A stretch of DNA of 8,955 nucleotides from Chloroflexota bacterium (lineage in GTDB: Bacteria > Chloroflexota > Anaerolineae > Promineifilales > Promineifilaceae), in the NCBI GenBank assembly GCA_024223125.1, contig JAAEOP010000372.1:1-8955 (forward strand), read 5' to 3'. The position numbers and the translations under genes were made by a program. Below the pieces are notes generated by a model. That model had not been told where the DNA came from, did no database searches, and saw only the letters and a program-made list of their open reading frames with translations. Positions 283-8,686 of the stretch are shown piece by piece. Position 1 is the stretch's first letter, and every line of letters begins with the position of its first letter.

Positions 283-2043
283 CTACTCTTTAATTGACAA
301 CAAGACACGGCCGTCCACATCCACCTCCCCATCAGCATTTTTCACCGGCCAGCGGGTAAAATCGTGGGGATTGTATAGTCCGACAGCCAGGGCAGCCGGC
401 GCTTTGGTCAGGGGCAGCATATGTTCATCGGCAATGATGATGTTTGTGGGCCAGACGGTTAAGGGGTAGCTGTTGGCAACTGGCTGGCTGTCATCTTGGG
501 CCAATAAGTTGCCATTCTCGTCCAGGAGGTGAACGAAGACAGTGGCGTTTTGGGTTAACGGCCGTGTCGTCTGCCAATATAAAGTTACCCTTACCATCTC
601 CCCATCAACTGGCTCTACAGCGTACCCTAGCAGCGAAATATCTTCCCCAATCTGGTGGCCGGCGGGCTGCGCCTGGGGCGGTAAATCTGTCAGCAGCCAA
701 TCAGCTTGGGCTAATAGTTGGGGTTGGAACCAATATCCTTCCGGCTCACCGCTGATGGGTTTGGTCAACAGTTGCAGCCGCCCACCCTGCCCGGCTAATG
801 CTGCCAGATCGACATCCAGTTTGATGGGTTGCTCTCCGGCAATAACAGTTTGGGAGGCCAGTTCCTGATCGTTGAATAAGATGGTAAAACGCATTTCGCC
901 TTGACCTTTGGCGGCAACGGCCGTATGAAAACGGCCGTTGTGCGGCACATCTAGCGCATAGGTCAAAACCGAATCAGCCGGCACAACAATAGCTGGCTGC
1001 CCGGCAATCGCCGTCTGCACAAATCGCTCATCCGGTTCACGGTTTGCTGTCCAAATAGCTAAAGTTATATCATTGACTACGCGCAAATTATGGGTGTCAG
1101 GAATGATAACGTGGGCGGCCGTTTCTTGCATCGTTAGCGTGGGATGAATGAGAGGTAAACGAACACGGCCGTCACCCACTTGCCAGATAAGAAAACCGGC
1201 CAACAACCCGGTCAATGTCCAACCAACTGCCTGACTTAAACTTTGGCCAGACGGCCGTGCCAGAACCAAATAAACCCCGCTCAATCCTGCCATGACTGCG
1301 AATAAAACCGCGAACCATTCCCCTTTAATAACTTTGTATTGCTGCAAACGAAGACGGAATAGATCAGGTAAGAGTTGTTCAGTCAGGGCGTCGAGAACGG
1401 CCGTACCCCGGACGTAACTGGTAAGCTGCAAATTCCCCGGACGGCCGTATTCATTCAGACGGATCGCCCCACCCAATTTATCGCCGCCGACGGCGTGGGT
1501 GATTGCGGGTTGTGCGGCCGTTGCTTCTGGGGCGCTCAATGTCAAAACAAAAGGGCGGTTTTCGGCCGTCGGAATCTGCGGAAACGCCAATCTATAAAAA
1601 CCACCCTTTGAACCATGTGCCAGGGGAATGTCTGTCGTGTAAGTTGTACTGTCATCGCCGGTGAGTGTGGCTGTTACGGCCGTGTCCCTCGATCCCGCCA
1701 ACCAAATTTCCACCATCGCCAAATCATTAGACCCACTGACAAAAGGTTGGGAAATATTGTTTGGTCCATAAATCGCTATGGGAAATGGAGTCGGGATGCC
1801 AGGCGCTTCTTGTGCTTGTGTCCACGGCCGCGGAAATAAATAGTGGGCGTCGTAGAACATGGGAACCTGTACTTGCGCCCCGGTACTCGTACTCCGCCAA
1901 CGGGCGAACAGGATTAGCAGCAATAGAATGAGGAGGAGAACGGCCGTTATTAGCCAGGGCGTGCCGTGATTCGTAATCCGTAATCGGTAATCCGTAATCC
2001 GTAATCGGTAATCCGTCGTCCGTCGTCCGTTGTCCGTCGTCAT
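283..2043 (-). CDS. membrane-anchored extracytoplasmic beta-sandwich protein of a glycosyltransferase cluster
   Basis: The 586-aa product has a repeat-encoded N-terminus (about residues 8-27, with RLRITDY units), one hydrophobic anchor (about 30-48), and a beta-rich domain (about 80-212). Two more membrane segments (about 242-262 and 272-289) and a second beta-rich region (about 300-455) follow. The C-terminal domain (about 464-585) has the pattern LLGY...VTLYWQTTRPLTQNATVFVHLLDENG...VGLYNP. From memory, this C-terminal type is often attached to GT39-like glycosyltransferases of Chloroflexota, so I infer an extracytoplasmic, carbohydrate-related role. No catalytic motif is visible. The start overlaps the preceding stop as ATGA, implying translational coupling. 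No other plausible start exists before the first membrane segment, so the repeat appears to be translated. The protein could be the detached outer half of a once-fused glycosyltransferase. Confidence 0.85.
   Translation of the reverse strand: MTTDNGRRTTDYRLRITDYRLRITNHGTPWLITAVLLLILLLLILFARWRSTSTGAQVQVPMFYDAHYLFPRPWTQAQEAPGIPTPFPIAIYGPNNISQPFVSGSNDLAMVEIWLAGSRDTAVTATLTGDDSTTYTTDIPLAHGSKGGFYRLAFPQIPTAENRPFVLTLSAPEATAAQPAITHAVGGDKLGGAIRLNEYGRPGNLQLTSYVRGTAVLDALTEQLLPDLFRLRLQQYKVIKGEWFAVLFAVMAGLSGVYLVLARPSGQSLSQAVGWTLTGLLAGFLIWQVGDGRVRLPLIHPTLTMQETAAHVIIPDTHNLRVVNDITLAIWTANREPDERFVQTAIAGQPAIVVPADSVLTYALDVPHNGRFHTAVAAKGQGEMRFTILFNDQELASQTVIAGEQPIKLDVDLAALAGQGGRLQLLTKPISGEPEGYWFQPQLLAQADWLLTDLPPQAQPAGHQIGEDISLLGYAVEPVDGEMVRVTLYWQTTRPLTQNATVFVHLLDENGNLLAQDDSQPVANSYPLTVWPTNIIIADEHMLPLTKAPAALAVGLYNPHDFTRWPVKNADGEVDVDGRVLLSIKE
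1972..2041. repeat. ten tandem 7-nt repeats at a gene start
   Basis: On the plus strand the units are cgtaatc, cgtaatc, ggtaatc (this triplet of units twice), then cgtcgtc, cgtcgtc, cgttgtc, cgtcgtc. The first six units form a 21-bp higher-order repeat, which encodes the 7-aa unit RLRITDY. The last unit overlaps the ATG at 2043-2041. A further degenerate unit may lie at 1965-1971. Gain or loss of one unit would shift the reading frame of the 586-aa protein. Confidence 0.95.
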
Positions 2044-3539
2044 AGATAATATCTCGGTAGAATGTAATTTAAGAGGGCGACAATATTGAAGAGTACCATG
2101 CTAATTCGCAGCCAGGTGTGAACGACGCTTTGCCACCGTTGGGGGGTTAAATACAGCAGTCCCATCGTAAAAAAGGTGAGCATGGGGATGATTGTGCCTA
2201 ACCAGTAACGGCCTTGTAAGCCTCGGCCGTTGCCATACTGCCACCAAAATGTTAAATCATACACTTGTATGAGAACGACCGGCAGCAACAGCGTCAGGGC
2301 CAGAAAAATCCACACGGGAAGCGGGGCAGTGGTTTGGCCAGATTGCCAGGTTTGAAAACGAGGACGGCCGTGCCAGCCGCGCCACAACTTCAATGCCAAC
2401 CCCGCCATCGCCAAAAAGGTGAGGAGCCGTAAAAAATGGTAAATCCAGGGAGCGACGGGCGTATCCAGCCAACCAAAATGCGCCCACCAGGTTGTAAACA
2501 AACCACCCCACACCGACTGATAGTAATCAAGCATATGTTGCAGTGGCGTATAATCGTAAAAAGGATTATTGATGATACGATGACCTTTCAACACCGGATT
2601 AAAATAAAATAAATCCTGGTTTAAGCGCAGACTGCGCTGCATCCACCAACCCACAGGAATAATGATGATGACATTCATCAACAGCGCCGCCCAAACCACG
2701 GACCAACGCCGTCCCTTGCCCCGCCACAAATCGTACAAAACGACCAGCGCCACCAACGGAGCAAAGCCGCTAATTGTCGGTTTGATGAGCATAGCGGCCG
2801 CAAACGTTAGACCCACAGCGGCCGCGTATTGATAGGAAAGGCGGTTGTGCAACACCAATAAACAAAGATAAATCAGCAGAGAATACAGCACAAAAAAGAG
2901 ACCGTCTACGGAGACAACGGCCGTCATCTGTGTCAACTGTGGCTGGAAAGCAACCAATGTGGGGATGGTCAGCCGCATGATGGCATCTGTGGGAAAAAGG
3001 AGGCGAGCAATTAGATAAGCGACAATAACAATGGGTGAACTGACCAGGACGGCAAACAAGCGCTGTACCTGAAACCGCAGCAGTAAATCGTCACTGTATC
3101 CAACAAGCCGGTAGGGTACGGCCGCAATCAAATAATACAGCGGCGTAGCGTGCATCAATTTAGCCACCGTTCCCAATTCTGTGCTGGTACGCGCAGAGTC
3201 TGGCAGTTGGGCAAATTCAGCCTCTCGCAAACCGACCGAGTTGTCGCTCCATCCCTGCCGTTGTTCAGGCTGATAATCCAACCGCCCCACATCGGCTAGT
3301 TCACGAGACAATGTAATTTCGTCGGGTAAGATTTCGTCGTTCGTGTCAGGTAGACGGCCATTTTCCCCAATAAACTGAATCACGGCATAATGGTCATCCT
3401 CATCTGGCCCTTGCCACAGCGGAAAGGCCAGACTCCATAGCGACCCCTTCACCATCATAATGGCAAACAAGAGCAAAATAAGTAGCCATTCTTTGCGCGA
3501 CTGGAGATTGGAGATTGGAGATTGGAGATTAGAGATCAC
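2040..3539 (-). CDS. GT-C family membrane glycosyltransferase (GT39 / DUF2142-like)
   Basis: This 499-aa polytopic protein has about ten hydrophobic segments. After the first (about residues 18-38) comes FPLWQGPDEDDHY (residues 39-51). An acidic motif in the first external loop is the hallmark of GT-C enzymes that use polyprenyl-phosphate sugars, and the P-x-GPDE-x2-H form is close to DUF2142 and ArnT/PMT-like families. Donor and acceptor cannot be read from sequence. The start is GTG at 3539, with no evident Shine-Dalgarno, and residues 2-14 (ISNLQSPISNLQS) are encoded by 7-nt repeats. No later start precedes the first membrane segment. The stop overlaps the next gene by 4 bp. The in-frame stop of the nuclease gene lies 21 nt upstream, so translation may depend on the preceding genes. 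Confidence 0.85.
   Translation of the reverse strand: MISNLQSPISNLQSRKEWLLILLLFAIMMVKGSLWSLAFPLWQGPDEDDHYAVIQFIGENGRLPDTNDEILPDEITLSRELADVGRLDYQPEQRQGWSDNSVGLREAEFAQLPDSARTSTELGTVAKLMHATPLYYLIAAVPYRLVGYSDDLLLRFQVQRLFAVLVSSPIVIVAYLIARLLFPTDAIMRLTIPTLVAFQPQLTQMTAVVSVDGLFFVLYSLLIYLCLLVLHNRLSYQYAAAVGLTFAAAMLIKPTISGFAPLVALVVLYDLWRGKGRRWSVVWAALLMNVIIIIPVGWWMQRSLRLNQDLFYFNPVLKGHRIINNPFYDYTPLQHMLDYYQSVWGGLFTTWWAHFGWLDTPVAPWIYHFLRLLTFLAMAGLALKLWRGWHGRPRFQTWQSGQTTAPLPVWIFLALTLLLPVVLIQVYDLTFWWQYGNGRGLQGRYWLGTIIPMLTFFTMGLLYLTPQRWQSVVHTWLRISMVLFNIVALLNYILPRYYL
3499..3536. repeat. five tandem 7-nt repeats at a gene start
   Basis: The plus-strand units are gactgga, gattgga (three times) and gattaga, plus a partial gat. 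The array ends directly at the GTG start of the GT-C gene and encodes NLQSPISNLQS near its N-terminus. The unit sequence differs from the array at 1972-2041, but the 7-nt period and the position at a gene start are the same. Confidence 0.95.
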
Positions 3540-3540
3540 G

Positions 3541-3558
3541 GGGCTGGCAAGGGCTGGC
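3541..3558. repeat. short direct repeat between nuclease and glycosyltransferase genes
   Basis: The octamer gggctggc occurs at 3541-3548 and 3551-3558, separated by two bases. It fills most of the 21-bp gap at the edge where the AT-rich restriction-modification cassette meets the GC-richer glycan genes. I saw no copy at the other edge (5740-5774), so it cannot be called a target duplication. Confidence 0.5.
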
Positions 3559-3560
3559 CG

Positions 3561-4385
3561 CTAATTATTTTCGTAAGTAGGCGGTGGTTCAAATAATGTC
3601 ACGGAATCAATAGTTAGGAAATATGATTCCAGGTTTTCTTGTTCGAGAAATTCAATAGCCTCAGCAACAGAATCAAATTCAAATATCTTAACTTCACCAA
3701 AATTAGAGATAATCTCTATAATTACTTTTTCCACTTCGCGCGGAACAGATTCATCTAGAATAGACTCTATTCGTTGAAGCAATTTATCTCCAACAACTTG
3801 AATCATGGCTCTTCCGATTTGATCCTGTTCTTCATTTGTCAACTGATTGTAATTTTCCCAGGCAACGAATGCTTTTTCTTTTTCCTTCTCACCCCATCGA
3901 AAATTCACTCCGACTTTCTCCAATTGGTCACAGATGAAATCAAATGGAATCAAAAAAATAGTTACGTCGTGGCTTTCCATCATAGCGATAAAAGACTTAC
4001 TCCAACTACCAGCTAAAATAGCAACGGAACTACGTATGCTATGGTAACGACGGCGAATAGCCGAATGAGCTGTACAAACCCAGCTTCCTTTATCTCTATT
4101 ATGTTTCTTGTATCGGATGTATTTGGACTCAAACAGAATCAAAGGACGCATTGATGCATCAGCAATAACACCGTCAATATCATACTCATTGCCAAAATTA
4201 TCAGCTAAGAGTAGCTTTTTGGCTCTATTACCTGCTTTTGTTTTACGAACGCCAGAAGTTAAATAGTGACATCCATATTCATCGGCTACATCAATTAAAA
4301 GGTTTTGCAAAGCCTTTTCCATTGAAGATCCAATTGCTTCCCCTAAAGCGCTTCCAGGATTAGCCACATTATAAAAGTTACTCAT
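3561..4385 (-). CDS. type II restriction endonuclease, PD-(D/E)XK fold (putative)
   Basis: The 274-aa product carries EYDIDGVIAD (67-76) followed by ILFESKYIRY (83-92), giving a D71...E86-S-K88 metal-binding core. An upstream GEAIGSSMEKAL helix (15-26) carries the Glu (E17 or E23) common in these folds. A basic stretch (SAIRRRYHSIRSS, 108-120) could contact DNA. Length fits a type II enzyme. It should cut unmodified DNA at the site protected by the methyltransferase encoded just upstream, which it overlaps by 8 bp. ATG at 4385 has AAGGGG four bases upstream (4390-4395). Composition is far more AT-rich than the glycan genes (16 of 60 G/C at 3661-3720 against 35 of 60 at 2341-2400). I do not recognise the specificity. 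A non-restriction DNA nuclease is the main alternative. Confidence 0.8.
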   Translation of the reverse strand: MSNFYNVANPGSALGEAIGSSMEKALQNLLIDVADEYGCHYLTSGVRKTKAGNRAKKLLLADNFGNEYDIDGVIADASMRPLILFESKYIRYKKHNRDKGSWVCTAHSAIRRRYHSIRSSVAILAGSWSKSFIAMMESHDVTIFLIPFDFICDQLEKVGVNFRWGEKEKEKAFVAWENYNQLTNEEQDQIGRAMIQVVGDKLLQRIESILDESVPREVEKVIIEIISNFGEVKIFEFDSVAEAIEFLEQENLESYFLTIDSVTLFEPPPTYENN

Positions 4386-5739
4386 GTTTCCCCTTACTTA
4401 AAATGACAATAGACTCTCTTAACGCCACTGAATGTCTTTGTGGATTCTTTTTCCATTTTCCCCCACGAGTTCTTAGAACTTCTATATCACAGCTATCGAA
4501 ACCAACACATAGCCCAATATCTCCAATCAGTTTATCTGTTGGTATGTGAACGCCATAAGGAGCAGAATCACCCAACACAAAAAGAGCTTTAGTTTCTGGC
4601 TTAAGCACACGGTATACATCTTTAACAATTTGGTGCATATCATTAAAGTAACCAGCTACCATCAAATCATAGCTCTTTCTACCCCCTTTAGTCAGGCGAC
4701 GTTCGGAGAGTTCGGTTACGGCCGTTGCCACAAATTCCGCCACACTGGGACATTCCTCTATCAATGCTTCCGAAATTTCATATTTCGGATTCCTACGAGC
4801 AATTTGGGTAGTAGCCGAGGTCATCAACTTTTCGCGTATATCCCGTGAAATATCTCCCCAAGTCTTCGCCTCACCCCAAAAGTAGAGTTCCAGACGAGTT
4901 CTATCAGCATAATCGAAGTTATTCAAATATGGTGGCGACGTAAAAACATGATCTATGCTTTGGTCAGGGATTTTCCTAATTGTACTTCTAGAATCACCAT
5001 TTATAAGGGTATGGTTTGTGTTTTTGTAACGGCCGTGAGACCAAATTTTTATTTCTTCAATATCATCTGCCATCTGCCGAGCCAGATTACTGAATTCTGT
5101 TAGCACATCTTTATCTAATGAACTAACTTTTTGTTTCTTAGGGGCAATATACGGCCAGCCAGTTGCCGCTGTAGAAACCTCTCGCAACAACGCTGTAACA
5201 ACAACAAAGAAAAATTCACGTACACTGTCTAACATTTCGCAATCACTTATCAGAGTACGCAACGCTAACAAATCTATCAATGACCTTTCCTGATAGCATT
5301 TCAAAATCAATTCAGGAAACTCCTCTTCAATGTCAGAAGATTTATATGTTTTTGCTAAACGGGGAAGTTCAGTTCGTACTTTTTTGATGAACTCAAGCAC
5401 ATTCCCTCGTTCAATTCGCCAGTTCATCTTAGCTTTTGTAATTCTATATACAAATGGGTGAGCTTCGACACCGTATGAGTGCATTCCTAAAGTTTTAGCC
5501 GTTAAATTGGTTGTGCCAGAACCCATAAAAGGGTCATAAATTGTTTGCCCTGGCAAAATATCAAATCGCTCAAGCGAATGTTCAACCGCTTTATATGAGA
5601 AACCCGCCGGATACGTAAACCAGCGGTGAATTGGCGCTCTCAAACTATCTTTGAAAGTACCCCATTCTGAATTTTTCTTGTTTGTTTTCGGTTTTTTTTC
5701 TTCTTCAAATAAAAAAGCTAATTGTGTAGATGAATGCAT
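4378..5739 (-). CDS. DNA methyltransferase of a type II restriction-modification system (putative N4-cytosine or N6-adenine)
   Basis: The 453-aa product contains the SAM-binding motif DPFMGSGTT (69-77), an acidic residue after the next strand (E92 in GVEAHPF), and the catalytic motif TSPPY (267-271). Near the N-terminus WFTYPAGFSYKAVEHSL (40-56) resembles the YPAKF segment of amino-methyltransferases. SPPY is commonest in N4-cytosine enzymes, but adenine cannot be excluded. Motif I precedes motif IV with about 190 residues between them. The 278-356 stretch, unlike core motifs, is a candidate specificity region. LKPETKALFVLGDS (379-392) is a late core strand. ATG at 5739 has AAGGGG four bases upstream (5744-5749), the same geometry as the nuclease start. 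Being first, it would be made before the nuclease. It contains two ACGGCCGT sites; the nuclease gene has none. Confidence 0.88.
   Translation of the reverse strand: MHSSTQLAFLFEEEKKPKTNKKNSEWGTFKDSLRAPIHRWFTYPAGFSYKAVEHSLERFDILPGQTIYDPFMGSGTTNLTAKTLGMHSYGVEAHPFVYRITKAKMNWRIERGNVLEFIKKVRTELPRLAKTYKSSDIEEEFPELILKCYQERSLIDLLALRTLISDCEMLDSVREFFFVVVTALLREVSTAATGWPYIAPKKQKVSSLDKDVLTEFSNLARQMADDIEEIKIWSHGRYKNTNHTLINGDSRSTIRKIPDQSIDHVFTSPPYLNNFDYADRTRLELYFWGEAKTWGDISRDIREKLMTSATTQIARRNPKYEISEALIEECPSVAEFVATAVTELSERRLTKGGRKSYDLMVAGYFNDMHQIVKDVYRVLKPETKALFVLGDSAPYGVHIPTDKLIGDIGLCVGFDSCDIEVLRTRGGKWKKNPQRHSVALRESIVILSKGKHE
4390..4395 (-). promoter_or_regulatory. ribosome binding site of the nuclease gene
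   Basis: AAGGGG lies four bases before ATG 4385, inside the 3' end of the methyltransferase gene. It supports independent initiation of the nuclease and fixes the 8-bp overlap. Confidence 0.7.
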
Positions 5740-5743
5740 AAGA

Positions 5744-5749
5744 CCCCTT
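5744..5749 (-). promoter_or_regulatory. ribosome binding site of the DNA methyltransferase gene
   Basis: AAGGGG lies four bases before ATG 5739, identical in sequence and spacing to the site before the nuclease. The glycan-cluster genes around it lack comparable sites at their starts, except the 49-codon ORF. Confidence 0.7.
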
Positions 5750-5774
5750 CAATTCAAAAACCTATTATTCATAT

Positions 5775-6461
5775 TTATATTTTCTTCGCAACATAATAAC
5801 AATGTGCCGACTGACGGCCGAACAACTTCACAAAAACACGCTCAATTTGTACAAAGAGGGGGGTCAACTTCTCCATGAAGGGGAATTGATCGGGTAGGAT
5901 TTCCCACAGCCAAAAGATGACGCTGTATTGTTCTGCTTTTTCTACGCGGAATCCCCCACCTGTTAACTGCTGCTTCAAGTCTGCAAAATAAAAGGGGGCG
6001 TTGATTTCGTCGCCGAGCCAGTTGGGGTACAAGCGTCGTCCCCAGCGAATAATGGGATTGTCTTCGGCCGTTTCAATAAGAAACAACACCCCGCTCGGTT
6101 TCAAACAACGGCGCACTTCTCCTAAAGCTTGCCGCACATCTCCAATATGGTGCAAGACGTGTTGGATGTAAATGAGATCAAAAATTTCGTCGGCGAAGGG
6201 CAGTTCCAGACCAGAGGCCACAGCCACCGGGCCATGATGCAGCGCCAACTGGACACGCTCTGGCACAACATCAATACCGAAAGAAGCACGGCCGTATTGC
6301 CCAAACCGACTCATATTCCATCCCGACGCACACCCCAAATCCAAAATCATTCGGGATGACGGCCGTTGGATAATTTCCTTCTCAACCGCAAAATAAGGCA
6401 ATACCTTGTACCGGCTGGGAGACCAATTTTCACCAAAAGTAACGGGTTTACGATAATCCAT
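5775..6461 (-). CDS. class I SAM-dependent methyltransferase (Methyltransf_11 type)
   Basis: Numbered from ATG 6461 (228 aa), the SAM-binding motif is ILDLGCASG (39-47), followed by the ribose-binding acidic residue D64 in FGIDVV. FDLIYIQHVLHHI (94-106) and LKPSGVLFL (120-128) complete the Rossmann core. The C-terminal third (about 150-215) is hydrophobic and aromatic and may cap the substrate site. Such enzymes in surface-glycan clusters often O-methylate sugars or lipid carriers, but the substrate cannot be read here. I chose ATG 6461, four bases after the upstream stop. The frame is open to a TTG at 6476, which would overlap the upstream gene by 11 bp. Neither start has a clear Shine-Dalgarno. 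The gene ends 35 bp before the restriction-modification cassette. Confidence 0.88.
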   Translation of the reverse strand: MDYRKPVTFGENWSPSRYKVLPYFAVEKEIIQRPSSRMILDLGCASGWNMSRFGQYGRASFGIDVVPERVQLALHHGPVAVASGLELPFADEIFDLIYIQHVLHHIGDVRQALGEVRRCLKPSGVLFLIETAEDNPIIRWGRRLYPNWLGDEINAPFYFADLKQQLTGGGFRVEKAEQYSVIFWLWEILPDQFPFMEKLTPLFVQIERVFVKLFGRQSAHCYYVAKKI

Positions 6462-6465
6462 TTTT

Positions 6466-8613
6466 TCAGTATTCAATGTTCAGCCGTCGGTCGTCAGTCA
6501 TCAGCCAGCGGTCGTTAAGAGGATGCTGATTACTGGAAACTGCTAACTGAACTGTGAATTGTAATGCCTGGACGATAATGGCAGACTCAGCCGCGCTCCA
6601 ATCCTTGTTTTGCCAATAACGCAAACGTTCATTTAACAAAGCATAAGGCGGAAAACCGTGGGCGGCCCGGGTTCGTGTCTGTACAAATTGGGTTGCTTCT
6701 GTCATCGAGAGCAACTTGGTTTGATCCTGACCAGCGTCTAACTGCAATACGGCCGTTAACCGGGCAGAATCGGCAATACGCACAGTCGGGAGCAAGGAAG
6801 TCAGGCGCCATTTTGGCGGGGTGATCAGACGTTGTAAATAGATATTGAACGTGGCAGTCGGCCAGCGGCGGTCGCTCATTTGCAATCCGGTCTTGCGCCC
6901 GGCCGATGAGTAAAACAAGGTTTGAATCCGCAAAGTCACACTTTGCCGCCATCCCAAACCATTCGCCATACGCATCACAGCCGGGGTAACGGTGAGTGGT
7001 TTGGGGAAACTATAAACACGGCCGTCGGCCGCCAAAACTGTAAAATCATCCGCCATAAATTCATAGTTGGCTTGGGTAACGGCCGTCAGCGTCGCTTCTG
7101 TTTTACCTTTGTCCTCATTAGGTACAATAAGTGTGGCCTGGCCATCTTGGGCTACGCAGCCGCCGTAAACCAGGGCACAACCTTTGCGGATAAACGCCCA
7201 ACGCAATACCGGTTCCAATACTGATTTATACAGCGCATACGGCGCTTTTTCCAGCGCTGGCGATACGACCACTTCTGTAAATTCACCGGGCATAATGGCT
7301 ACGCCAAACCCAAAACGGCTCAGACGTTCATCGTAGGTAATTGCTCCCGGCTGCGGGCTGGGTGTGCCGTGCCGGTCTACACGCACAGCAATATCTACAT
7401 GGGGCAGGGGCATGGCCGTCTCAAAATAAGTCAGTTCCGGCAAAGGCGCTTCCGACTCGATGCCTAGCAGTCCGTGAATGTTGTACCGATAAACGGCCGG
7501 CTGCCACATCGTCATGCCGCGCACAGAAAAAACCCATTGCTCCGAGGCCAAATAGCGTACCACCCCTTCAATCAAAATTGCACTAAAACCGGCCGAAAGC
7601 AGCGGCCATTGCCAACGACCCAAAAACAGAGCCAACAGCGGCAGTCGCGCAAATAGCAATGAAATTTGATTGCTGATAAAGAAACGGCGAAAGGAAGGCC
7701 AGCCCGCTACCGGATGCCCCCCGCCCAACACCCATTTTTCGGTAATGGTGAAACGGAGCAAAATGAAGAGTTCAGCCGACAACACGGCCGTGATCCAAAA
7801 CGGCCATTTCGTAAACTGTGTCAGGAAAGCGAACAGGGCTGTGTCCAACAACATACTCCCCAGGGCTACCGCAATCAGACGGGGGAAAGATTGGTTAGCC
7901 GTTGCCCGCAGCCGCAGCAAATGACGGAAGAAACGCATCCCCTCGCGAAAATCTGCTTTACTATCTCCGTCATGACGGGCGCCAAAATCAAAATGGAGTT
8001 CTGACACGCGCAAACCAGGGCAGCGAATGAGAATCTCTAGCAAAATTTTGAAACCATCGGGACGAAGCGCATCAATGTTTACGGCCGCGCGCCGCACTAA
8101 AAACAATCCTGTCAACGGATCGGATACATTTTTCAGCAAGCGAGGGAAAGAGGCGCGGGCTAGCAAGGTTAGAACCTGGGAAGTCATGGCCCGTTTACGG
8201 CTAAGGCCCAACGGCCCCGTCAGACTGGCTTTGCGGCTGCCCACTACCACATCCGCGTCTGCTTCTTCTGCTCGCGCCAACAGCGCCGGAATGACTTCTG
8301 GCGGATGTTGCAAATCGGCGTCCATCACACACAGCCAACGGCCGGATGCTGCCCGAAACCCTTCCACGACAGCGCCGCTTAACCCATTGCGTTGTTCTGG
8401 CGGCCGGGTAATCAATTGGATGGGGAAAAGGAAATCGGCGGCAGCTTCTTGAACAACCTGGGGCGTCCCGTCGCTGCTATCGTCTACAAAAAGAACTGTA
8501 AACGGCCGTTCCCCCATCACCTGCGCCAACCGCTGCAACAAAGGCCGAACATTCCCCGCCTCATTCCGAGTAGGCACAATAATCGTCAACCAGTCTCCTT
8601 CTTCCATTCGCAT
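6466..8613 (-). CDS. fusion protein: GT2 glycosyltransferase, GtrA-like membrane domain, HPr-kinase-like P-loop domain
   Basis: Numbered from ATG 8613 (715 aa), residues 8-235 are a GT2 domain like dolichyl/polyprenyl-phosphate sugar synthases: LTIIVPTRNEAGN (9-21), VDDSSDGT (43-50), DADLQHPPE (98-106) with the metal-binding DxD. Residues about 244-365 are GtrA-like, with four hydrophobic segments and RFTITEKWV and RYLASEQWVF at the ends of the paired helices. Residues about 377-715 resemble HprK-like kinases: IHGLLGIESEAPLPEL (379-394), then VYGGCVAQDGQATLIVPNED (482-501) running into GKT (503-505), a Walker A variant with Pro498 replacing the first Gly, then MADDFTVL (520-527). The frame is open to ATG 8661 and GTG 8679, but that extension is encoded by 7-nt-like repeats and GT2 domains normally begin near LTIIVPT. 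ATG 8607 is also possible. The C-terminus runs into another repeat tract. Confidence 0.88.
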   Translation of the reverse strand: MRMEEGDWLTIIVPTRNEAGNVRPLLQRLAQVMGERPFTVLFVDDSSDGTPQVVQEAAADFLFPIQLITRPPEQRNGLSGAVVEGFRAASGRWLCVMDADLQHPPEVIPALLARAEEADADVVVGSRKASLTGPLGLSRKRAMTSQVLTLLARASFPRLLKNVSDPLTGLFLVRRAAVNIDALRPDGFKILLEILIRCPGLRVSELHFDFGARHDGDSKADFREGMRFFRHLLRLRATANQSFPRLIAVALGSMLLDTALFAFLTQFTKWPFWITAVLSAELFILLRFTITEKWVLGGGHPVAGWPSFRRFFISNQISLLFARLPLLALFLGRWQWPLLSAGFSAILIEGVVRYLASEQWVFSVRGMTMWQPAVYRYNIHGLLGIESEAPLPELTYFETAMPLPHVDIAVRVDRHGTPSPQPGAITYDERLSRFGFGVAIMPGEFTEVVVSPALEKAPYALYKSVLEPVLRWAFIRKGCALVYGGCVAQDGQATLIVPNEDKGKTEATLTAVTQANYEFMADDFTVLAADGRVYSFPKPLTVTPAVMRMANGLGWRQSVTLRIQTLFYSSAGRKTGLQMSDRRWPTATFNIYLQRLITPPKWRLTSLLPTVRIADSARLTAVLQLDAGQDQTKLLSMTEATQFVQTRTRAAHGFPPYALLNERLRYWQNKDWSAAESAIIVQALQFTVQLAVSSNQHPLNDRWLMTDDRRLNIEY
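6469..6555. repeat. degenerate 7-nt repeats spanning the end of the GT2 fusion gene
   Basis: Read on the minus strand, one block has CAGT-type cores spaced exactly seven bases apart (CAGTTAG, CAGTTTC, CAGTAAT, CAGCATC). The next block runs ACGACCG, CTGGCTG, ATGACTG, ACGACCG, ACGGCTG, AACATTG, AATACTG. The tract encodes roughly the last 27 residues and reaches the TGA. The natural end of the protein may have been upstream and extended by repeat insertion (inference). Confidence 0.75.
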
Positions 8614-8656
8614 ACTTGCTACTTTCCACCTGCATACTTGCAACTTGCTACACCTG
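8610..8656. repeat. degenerate 7-nt-type repeats before the GT2 start
   Basis: The decamer gcatacttgc occurs at 8610-8619 and 8632-8641, each heading a 22- to 24-bp unit ending in cacct or cacct-like sequence. On the minus strand, seven- to eight-base units such as TAGCAAG, TTGCAAG, TATGCAG and GTGGAAAG follow one another. The tract lies just upstream of the preferred ATG 8613 and would encode CSKLQVCRWKVAS if an earlier start were used. Confidence 0.7.
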
Positions 8657-8686
8657 CACATCTTATCGTAATCATTCACTCCCCCA

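Follow-up and report, generated by a model that had tools for sequence, protein, structure and literature searches.

A HIP1-like palindromic octamer, abundant and conserved in genomes of an Anaerolineae order and flanked by a mirror-symmetric GC skew

Introduction

HIP1 (GCGATCGC), the highly iterated palindrome of cyanobacteria, was first reported in 1995 and still has no settled function. Chi sites and DNA uptake sequences are also over-represented short words with lineage variants, and both are oriented and non-palindromic. According to passages of Elhai 2015 (PMC4390886), most cyanobacteria outside group C1 carry HIP1 at 300-2,700 copies per Mb, and a passage of PMC6604393 cites Xu 2018 for the maintenance of HIP1 by selection.

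We analyzed an 8,955-nt stretch of DNA (here, the window) that is rich in the octamer ACGGCCGT. This word resembles HIP1 in being a GC-rich palindromic octamer around a palindromic hexamer, and further in its DNA-level nature, its palindromic extensions and the related words that replace it in some relatives, as passages of PMC4390886 describe for HIP1. It differs in its core (CGGCCG here, CGATCG in HIP1) and in the phylum in which it occurs. HIP1 proper is ruled out, as GCGATCGC has 0 copies in the window and the relatives are Chloroflexota, not cyanobacteria. The likeness to Chi sites and DNA uptake sequences lies in over-representation and lineage variants, but ACGGCCGT is palindromic. In full-text literature searches, no report of a HIP in Chloroflexota was found among the papers listed, and the HIP papers that were found concern cyanobacteria. 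We propose that ACGGCCGT is probably a highly iterated palindrome of an Anaerolineae order, a counterpart of cyanobacterial HIP1 but distinct from it, and kept through a factor that reads CGGCCG plus one outer pair.

Results

Abundance of the octamer in the window

An earlier note on this DNA, made from the sequence, had claimed 21 exact copies of ACGGCCGT; our recount gave exactly 21 in the 8,955 nt, the first at 307 and the last starting at 8502, and the word is the commonest 8-mer of the window. The CGGCCG core occurs 38 times, with the outer bases A..T in 21 of the 38. The note's figure of about 150 times the chance level holds for Markov orders 0 and 1, in which 0.12 and 0.14 copies are expected, but not for higher orders (0.35 at order 2 and 1.5 at order 3). 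The expectations at orders 4-6 (6.5, 16, and 18) derive from the word's own pieces. The genes of the window are as follows.

283-2043: protein without a Pfam match
2040-3539: PMT_2 membrane protein
3561-5739: type II restriction-modification (R-M) pair, with type II MTase/REase matches only
5775-6476: small methyltransferase gene
6466-8679: glycosyltransferase with a GtrA domain

All 21 copies lie inside the six main ORFs, and they fall in all three codon phases (9, 8, and 4), in agreement with the several reading frames reported earlier. Synonymous-codon shuffling within these ORFs gave a mean of 1.9 and a maximum of 7 copies in 2000 trials, against 21 in the real sequence. Protein sequence and codon usage are therefore no explanation for the abundance of the word, and the shuffles, together with the genome-wide counts in relatives given below, uphold the view that a HIP1-like enrichment acts here on DNA and not on protein.

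The uneven spread described in the earlier note was confirmed: the three blocks of the window hold 12, 2 (R-M cassette), and 7 copies, and both cassette sites are in the methyltransferase gene. In the cassette (3561-5739), the deficit of ACGGCCGT (2 of 21) is weak and not significant alone (P = 0.084), and that of CGGCCG (2 of 38) is clear (P = 0.002). The GC content of the cassette is 37-40%, against 48-53% in the window's other four genes. This AT-rich cassette looks ordinary, and no link between it and ACGGCCGT was found.

The 21 sites are listed below, all exact matches and with no strand assigned. For 16 of them, one or more of the stretches from ten relatives could be aligned, and 14 of these 16 are present in at least one relative.

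307..314: site 1, not alignable to any stretch from the relatives
558..565: site 2, in G008, absent from G317
917..924: site 3, not alignable
931..938: site 4, not alignable
1165..1172: site 5, in G317, the sole aligned relative
1251..1258: site 6, in G317, absent from G008
1397..1404: site 7, in 3/3 aligned relatives
1441..1448: site 8, in 0/3 aligned relatives
1676..1683: site 9, in 2/2 aligned relatives
1940..1947: site 10, in 3/4 aligned relatives
2364..2371: site 11, in 4/5 aligned relatives
2917..2924: site 12, in 4/5 aligned relatives
4718..4725: site 13, R-M methyltransferase gene, not alignable
5029..5036: site 14, R-M methyltransferase gene, not alignable
6288..6295: site 15, in 10/10 aligned relatives
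6359..6366: site 16, in 1/10 aligned relatives
6749..6756: site 17, in G009, the sole aligned relative
7018..7025: site 18, in 8/8 aligned relatives
7079..7086: site 19, in 0/8 aligned relatives
7784..7791: site 20, in 2/10 aligned relatives (G008, G214), with gaps in two of the other eight
8502..8509: site 21, in 1/7 aligned relatives

Genome-wide abundance in relatives

The closest orthologs of the window's glycosyltransferase were found in G001, G254, G009, G011, G003, and G317 (67-70% identity) and, as a partial match at 72%, in G327; these seven genomes contain 9,134 to 15,176 copies of ACGGCCGT each. The best named homologs of this protein belong to Anaerolineae and Ardenticatenaceae. 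Based on the closest orthologs and on a scan of contigs for three clustered copies of ACGGCCGT, we assigned the window to the same order as G001; its class, Anaerolineae (Chloroflexota), follows the contig titles in that scan and the names of the homologs. The genome-wide counts given here are thus those of relatives, mostly metagenome bins by title, and not of the window's own genome.

Motif-rich genomes may exist beyond those listed by the cluster scan. Among the 80 matches listed, at least 25 rows were labeled Chloroflexi, Chloroflexota, or Anaerolinea(e), with several rows per genome. All 12 Chloroflexota genomes picked by the scan had 6,466-15,176 copies, i.e., one per ∼480 to 710 bases, and the reversed word, used as a control, had 40 to 237 copies in the same twelve; eight other genomes picked likewise (Bacteroidales, Streptomyces, and others) had 8-870 copies of ACGGCCGT. 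In a 298-genome sample of the class, more than 1,000 copies were present in 11 genomes, all in G001's order, and 6 genomes had zero. Within the order, 27 of 56 genomes had ≥ 900 copies per Mb; these 27 span about 991-2,101 per Mb, a density like that of HIP1, and contain 40-459 copies of the reversed word.

Five motif-rich genomes, sampled over 400 kb, had 716 copies against 10.5 expected from masked order-2 counts (O/E 68), and the next palindromic 8-mer had an O/E of 3.2. The one-base neighbors with the highest O/E were TCGGCCGT (3.4), ACGACCGT (2.0), and GCGGCCGT (1.7), and the rest ranged from 0.4 to 1.4. The density of ACGGCCGT was 1.86 per kb in coding and 1.49 in noncoding DNA, with crude ORFs. 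The spacings were distributed almost exponentially, those shorter than 20 nt being slightly too few, and the counts per 20 kb were over-dispersed (variance/mean 3.8). At L188, 68 sites are arranged in tandem units of 45/46/92 bp, which are the main source of an excess of 45/46-bp spacings. L188 was left out of the third-codon-position and per-genome skew analyses and included in the 400-kb counts and the covariation, identity-profile, and coding-density sets; the stretches of G055 and G244, which read as N, were dropped.

Could the abundance be a local accident, a codon bias, or a dispersed repeat family? The tandem units of L188 would fit a repeat family. However, the word is abundant throughout the relatives' genomes, far above expectation, as the earlier note had required of anything other than a local accident; the shuffles reached no more than 7 copies; no shared flanking sequence beyond a G/C skew was seen in the 400 kb of relatives; and the spacing is near-exponential, though over-dispersed at the 20-kb scale. 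This explanation is already contradicted, and we give it practically no weight.

Conservation of single sites

The earlier note had suggested a check of whether sites are kept while their flanks drift, and in aligned relatives the conservation of sites did exceed that of the flanks. In eight genome pairs (aligned stretches, one direction per pair, gapped columns dropped), ACGGCCGT was kept at 54/60, 42/44, 43/46, 41/46, 17/28, 30/37, 24/37, and 9/17 sites, against fractions of 0.62, 0.59, 0.29, 0.30, 0.12, 0.25, 0.17, and 0.09 for other 8-mers in the same pairs. In a pair at 82% identity, for example, 43 of 46 sites were kept, compared with 29% for other 8-mers. Control words with the same G+C and two CpG were similar to all other 8-mers. 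When the window was compared with relatives in pooled form, 84 of 157 sites were kept against 9% of other 8-mers; the pooled figures count pairs repeatedly and in both directions, and they agree with the per-pair figures. Words conserved as well as or better than ACGGCCGT numbered 127 of 7,241 in the close set (n ≥ 20) and 31 of 266 in the window set, and these presumably belong to conserved protein motifs.

The conservation had a sharp edge at 8 bases in three of four comparison sets. At 84% mean identity, positions within the octamer were 96-98% identical, and the 12 adjoining bases 76-92%; the corresponding values inside and beside the octamer were 85-95% and 56-81% for G317, and 89-93% and 66-84% in a second cluster. 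The edge was less plain in the window set (71-87% vs. 58-76%), where the two outer HIP positions (identity 0.71 and 0.76) were no higher than the bases farther out (0.756). When close genomes differed by a single change, these changes were spread evenly over the four half-site positions (11/9/10/11). Polarised substitutions by the sites were A>G in 30/920 and T>C in 21/1134, counts too small to tell selection from biased repair.

Dialects of the CGGCCG core

CGGCCG outnumbered its reversed control GCCGGC in 52 of the 56 genomes of the order, the exceptions being G323, G324, G325, and G326. The outer pair varied among genomes. In fetched DNA, TCGGCCGA made up 30 of 38 core sites in G318 and 25 of 34 in G114, and GCGGCCGC made up 67 of 78 in G201. 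CGGCCG without one fixed outer pair was found in G171, G224, G300, G339, G340, and G342. In G325, CGGCCG is scarce (447), and TGCCGGCA occurs 70 times in 58 kb and 3,665 times genome-wide; no alternative palindrome was seen in the 12 and 22 kb looked at in G324 and G326. The survey left out G330-G333, G134, G337, G341, and G291, and covered G309, G336, G338, and G343 by 3-7 kb only.

RpoC sequences from 40 of the 56 genomes were placed in a midpoint-rooted tree, some nodes of which are weakly supported. The ACGGCCGT genomes form a single deep group in this tree, and several genomes with low counts also fall within it. G318 has G114 as its sister, next to genomes without a fixed outer pair, and G201 is a deeper branch. 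Three positions in rpoC were compared: the first has ACGGCCGT in 22 genomes; the second has ACGGCCGT in 17 genomes and GCGGCCGC in G201; and the third has ACGGCCGT in 8 genomes and TCGGCCGA in G114. Two homologous positions thus carry differing dialects, indicating that dialects can differ in place. The enrichment of the window in ACGGCCGT is real; in relatives, the word occurs throughout the genome, is spread across a deep group, and is under strong constraint.

Mirror-symmetric skew of the flanks

A mirror-symmetric GC skew surrounds the sites (GGnnACGGCCGTnnCC) and becomes small by ∼60 nt. With L188 included, G occupies positions -3 and -4 of ACGGCCGT in 52 and 56% of cases and exceeds C to ∼20 bases, with the mirror image on the opposite side; without L188, the skew at -3/-4 is +0.49 (n = 1448). 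At third codon positions, the upstream value at 5-10 nt is +0.59 and the downstream value -0.49; the skew falls to ∼0.1 by 60 nt and has a weak tail to 300. Both strands are G-rich running 5' to 3' into the palindrome and C-rich leaving it, and this is seen at synonymous positions. The skew was present in the window. When 11 genomes were analyzed one at a time, 10 showed it, and in G004 it covers only the first 4 nt.

The skew is also found at TCGGCCGA and TGCCGGCA, is weak or absent at CGGCCG without a fixed outer pair, and reaches at most +0.16 at the CGGCCG core outside the octamer. GCCGGC and TGGCCA controls showed no mirrored pattern, with single-sided bins of -0.16 to -0.22 downstream within 15 nt for TGGCCA and one bin of -0.14 for GCCGGC. 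Sites shared and unshared with a diverged partner had a similar skew. At the partner's place without the octamer, the values were +0.18 to +0.32 at 2-4 nt and +0.04 to +0.12 at 4-10 nt, with mostly little skew beyond 4 nt apart from +0.12 at 20-40 nt in one set. The skew is mostly lost where the partner lacks the site, and it may be gained and lost together with the octamer.

Hairpins at ACGGCCGT were considered as a source of the flanking pattern and rejected. Among 16 mirrored flank positions, the first pairs matched above chance (z 3.6) and the sixth below (z -3.3); mirrored positions do not covary, bar the first, so the flanks are not hairpins.

The mirrored skew is the feature that we least expected, and we found no earlier description of it. 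The word "skew" is absent from the available part of Elhai 2015 (PMC4390886), and our literature searches were not aimed at skew by name. In two cyanobacterial plasmids (n = 89 and 65), the flank skew of HIP1 was clear only in the first 2-4 nt, compared with ∼60 nt here, and one of these plasmids had a weak bin at 20-40 nt (z 3.3). It is possible, albeit doubtful, that each HIP is the center of a strand-asymmetric DNA-processing tract, acting as the entry or stop point of a repair or resection system that reads the CGGCCG dialects. If this is true, the skew provides a sequence-level readout of HIP action.

Viral contigs rich in the octamer

Viral contigs were scanned for places where ACGGCCGT occurs three times in a cluster, which gave 14 stretches, five of them at ≥ 1.2 per kb. 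Four viral contigs, with lengths of 6.6 to 13.6 kb, hold 21, 49, 48, and 31 copies, and these alone are termed motif-rich. At least one of the four is clearly a tailed phage: L335 encodes portal, terminase, head morphogenesis, and major head proteins. L329 encodes an anti-repressor and a lytic transglycosylase-like protein, two of the four L340 proteins tried gave partition and terminase-like matches, and the one L328 protein tried had no match. Of two control words, AGCCGGCT gave 28 stretches (6 at ≥ 1.2 per kb, the densest with 16 copies in 5.1 kb) and TCGGCCGA gave 6 stretches with 3-7 copies each. The HIP-rich viral contigs had no skew beyond 4 bases (n = 148), and the long skew is thus not required for the abundance of the word. 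A pure by-product of mutation is disfavored by the conservation of single sites, by the 8-base edge of this conservation, and by the viral contigs rich in the motif.

The viral contigs bear on two further explanations. If ACGGCCGT were a Chi-like or self-marking signal, the word would exempt its own DNA from a resident nuclease or recruit recombination, and the host and its adapted phages would fill up with it. The copy numbers of the four contigs, including the one with phage structural genes, fit this idea, as does the scarcity of the motif in AT-rich, seemingly recently acquired DNA, such as the R-M cassette and L189 (6 copies in 20 kb, 42% GC). Against it, known Chi sites are oriented and not palindromic, and only 4 of the 14 viral matches were that rich in a search that selected clusters; we judge it quite unlikely. 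In the second explanation, biased transformation would have spread the word as a DNA uptake sequence that has dialects in different lineages. In density, dialects, and conservation, ACGGCCGT is like the uptake sequences of Neisseria and Haemophilus; however, it is palindromic, lies mainly within genes, and is abundant in the four viral contigs, and we consider a role in uptake highly improbable.

Candidate enzymes

In a methylation-driven explanation patterned on the HIP model of Elhai, an orphan CGGCCG or GGCC methyltransferase would mark the sites, and mark-directed mismatch repair would create and keep them with no further function. In agreement with such a model, the hexamer core is common to most dialects while the outer pair varies, as with CGATCG in HIP1, and the neighbor of highest O/E, TCGGCCGT, differs from ACGGCCGT at an outer position. 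The distribution of enzymes was less favorable. m5C methyltransferases (PF00145) were found in 11 of the 21 genomes with > 1,000 copies, whose completeness was not stated, and a universal m5C partner was rejected in its simple form. PF01555 was found in 20 of the 21, with 19 over the cut-off; the match was weak in G001 and not significant in G224.

A relaxed PF01555 search of G001 led to a 658-aa orphan permuted N6/N4-type methyltransferase with a TDPPY motif. Of 31 genomes with a CGGCCG-core octamer, 29 have an ortholog of it, compared with 14 of 24 others (Fisher P = 0.003 with kinship ignored; G325, which has TGCCGGCA and not the gene, was left out, and several of the 24 were not surveyed for other octamers). 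The gene is missing from the HIP-rich genomes G334 and G153, and no ortholog was found in G171, G224, G300, G339, G340, G342 (one weak local match), or G325. It also occurs in non-HIP genomes of the class, with hits in 46 of 298 at E ≤ 1e-40 when members of the order are included. The predicted structure is confident (pLDDT 85), Foldseek matches to the model are weak (best Trm11, E 2.9e-4; CcrM, 3.5e-3), and there was no PDB sequence match at E ≤ 0.001. The association is suggestive and no more, which makes this protein a weak candidate reader of CGGCCG.

Vsr (PF03852) was detected in 8 of 56 genomes, of which 6 are among the 27 motif-rich ones, and a word driven by Vsr (VSP repair) was rejected on this basis. 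Regarding published enzymes and methylomes, passages of Elhai 2015 (PMC4390886) assign the GGCC enzyme of Anabaena to the D12 class (PF02086), and a passage of PMC6329791 reports GANTC, TTAA, and GCWGC in Chloroflexi methylomes.

No universal enzyme was found among the families searched, and the outer pair is fixed; both count against a simple methylation story. Moreover, the single changes are spread evenly over the half-site, and the published model requires GmeC and leaves the outer A:T pair unexplained. On balance, we think it unlikely that methylation alone maintains the word.

Discussion

The top 8-mer here is a GC-rich palindrome that is found genome-wide in relatives, in coding and noncoding DNA and in several frames, and is replaced by alternative palindromes in some of them. 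These are features of the HIP class in the sense of Elhai 2015, to which a methyltransferase able to recognize the word would also belong. In our preferred reading, that of a separate Anaerolineae HIP, a putative chromosomal DNA-maintenance factor would read CGGCCG plus one outer pair. This factor might be an enzyme of DNA methylation, repair, or recombination, or an abundant protein that binds DNA as a dimer. The earlier note had listed a methylation target, a repair or recombination signal, and nucleoid-protein binding as possible roles, any of which may apply. Loss of a site would be costly, or would be repaired back, and about 1 to 2 sites per kb would persist. The dialects would follow changes in the factor's reading of the outer pair. 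As for the skew, it could mark an extended zone of weak recognition, or it could be left behind by strand-asymmetric processing with its start at the site.

The comparison with cyanobacteria reveals differences as well as likenesses. A matching methyltransferase is unconfirmed for ACGGCCGT, for which PF00145 is patchy and PF01555 is weak in key genomes. According to passages of Elhai 2015 (PMC4390886), the alternative cyanobacterial HIPs (GGCGCC, GCsGC, rCCGGy, GGGATCCC, and TCGATCGA) likewise replace the common palindrome where it is scarce. Most dialects described here, unlike those words, retain the core of the common palindrome, CGGCCG, with the exception of TGCCGGCA in G325. The same source describes the alternative HIPs as sporadic, whereas ACGGCCGT and TCGGCCGA mark groups in the RpoC tree.

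With its dialects, its extended signature in the flanks, its viral contigs rich in the motif, and its pairs of close genomes, a second HIP system would allow comparisons beyond those that cyanobacteria offer on their own. Such comparisons may show which gene changes with the dialect, and whether the sites are kept by selection or by repair.

Avoidance of the octamer, and an orphan methyltransferase

In six genomes from the 298-genome sample of the class Anaerolineae (G039, G071, G144, G175, G262 and G268; 3.3–5.5 Mb each), ACGGCCGT had zero copies. Because the reversed word, the control, occurred 15–247 times in the same genomes, the octamer is strongly avoided there, and it is perhaps a restriction target in them. 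The orphan methyltransferase, a weak candidate for the enzyme reading the motif, has conserved RPNxYLHKWWARRCG and TDPPY stretches in L167 and its orthologs; a PDB sequence search returned no relatives at E ≤ 0.001.

L167 1273–3249, minus strand: orphan methyltransferase, ∼660 aa (orthologs, L273–L302)

Motif-poor regions

Window 3561–5739: type II R-M pair (PADLOC: MTase_II, 1.8e-78; REase_II, 5.3e-13)

This pair is AT-rich (GC 37–40%) and sparse in the core motif, CGGCCG, and was probably acquired. L189, a 20-kb stretch of the HIP-rich relative G003, has a GC content of 42% and only six copies of ACGGCCGT, and is perhaps an acquired island.

Tandem repeats

In L188, also from G003, diverged tandem units of 45, 46 or 92 bp are organised around ACGGCCGT, and the left flank is G-rich in most of them.

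L188 7–546: tandem units
L188 2290–2487: tandem units
L188 4182–4355: tandem units
L188 4684–4842: tandem units

Heptamer repeats (units among CCGTAAT, TCCGTCG and TGGAGAT) were found at gene starts in the window.

Window 1964–2041: heptamer tandem repeats
Window 3502–3536: heptamer tandem repeats

When runs of at least three exact copies were counted for periods 4 to 11 in 796 kb from HIP-rich relatives, period 7 was the most frequent (33 runs), followed by period 4 (22 runs). Cyanobacteria have heptamer repeats known as STRRs, of which these period-7 runs and the window heptamers are reminiscent.
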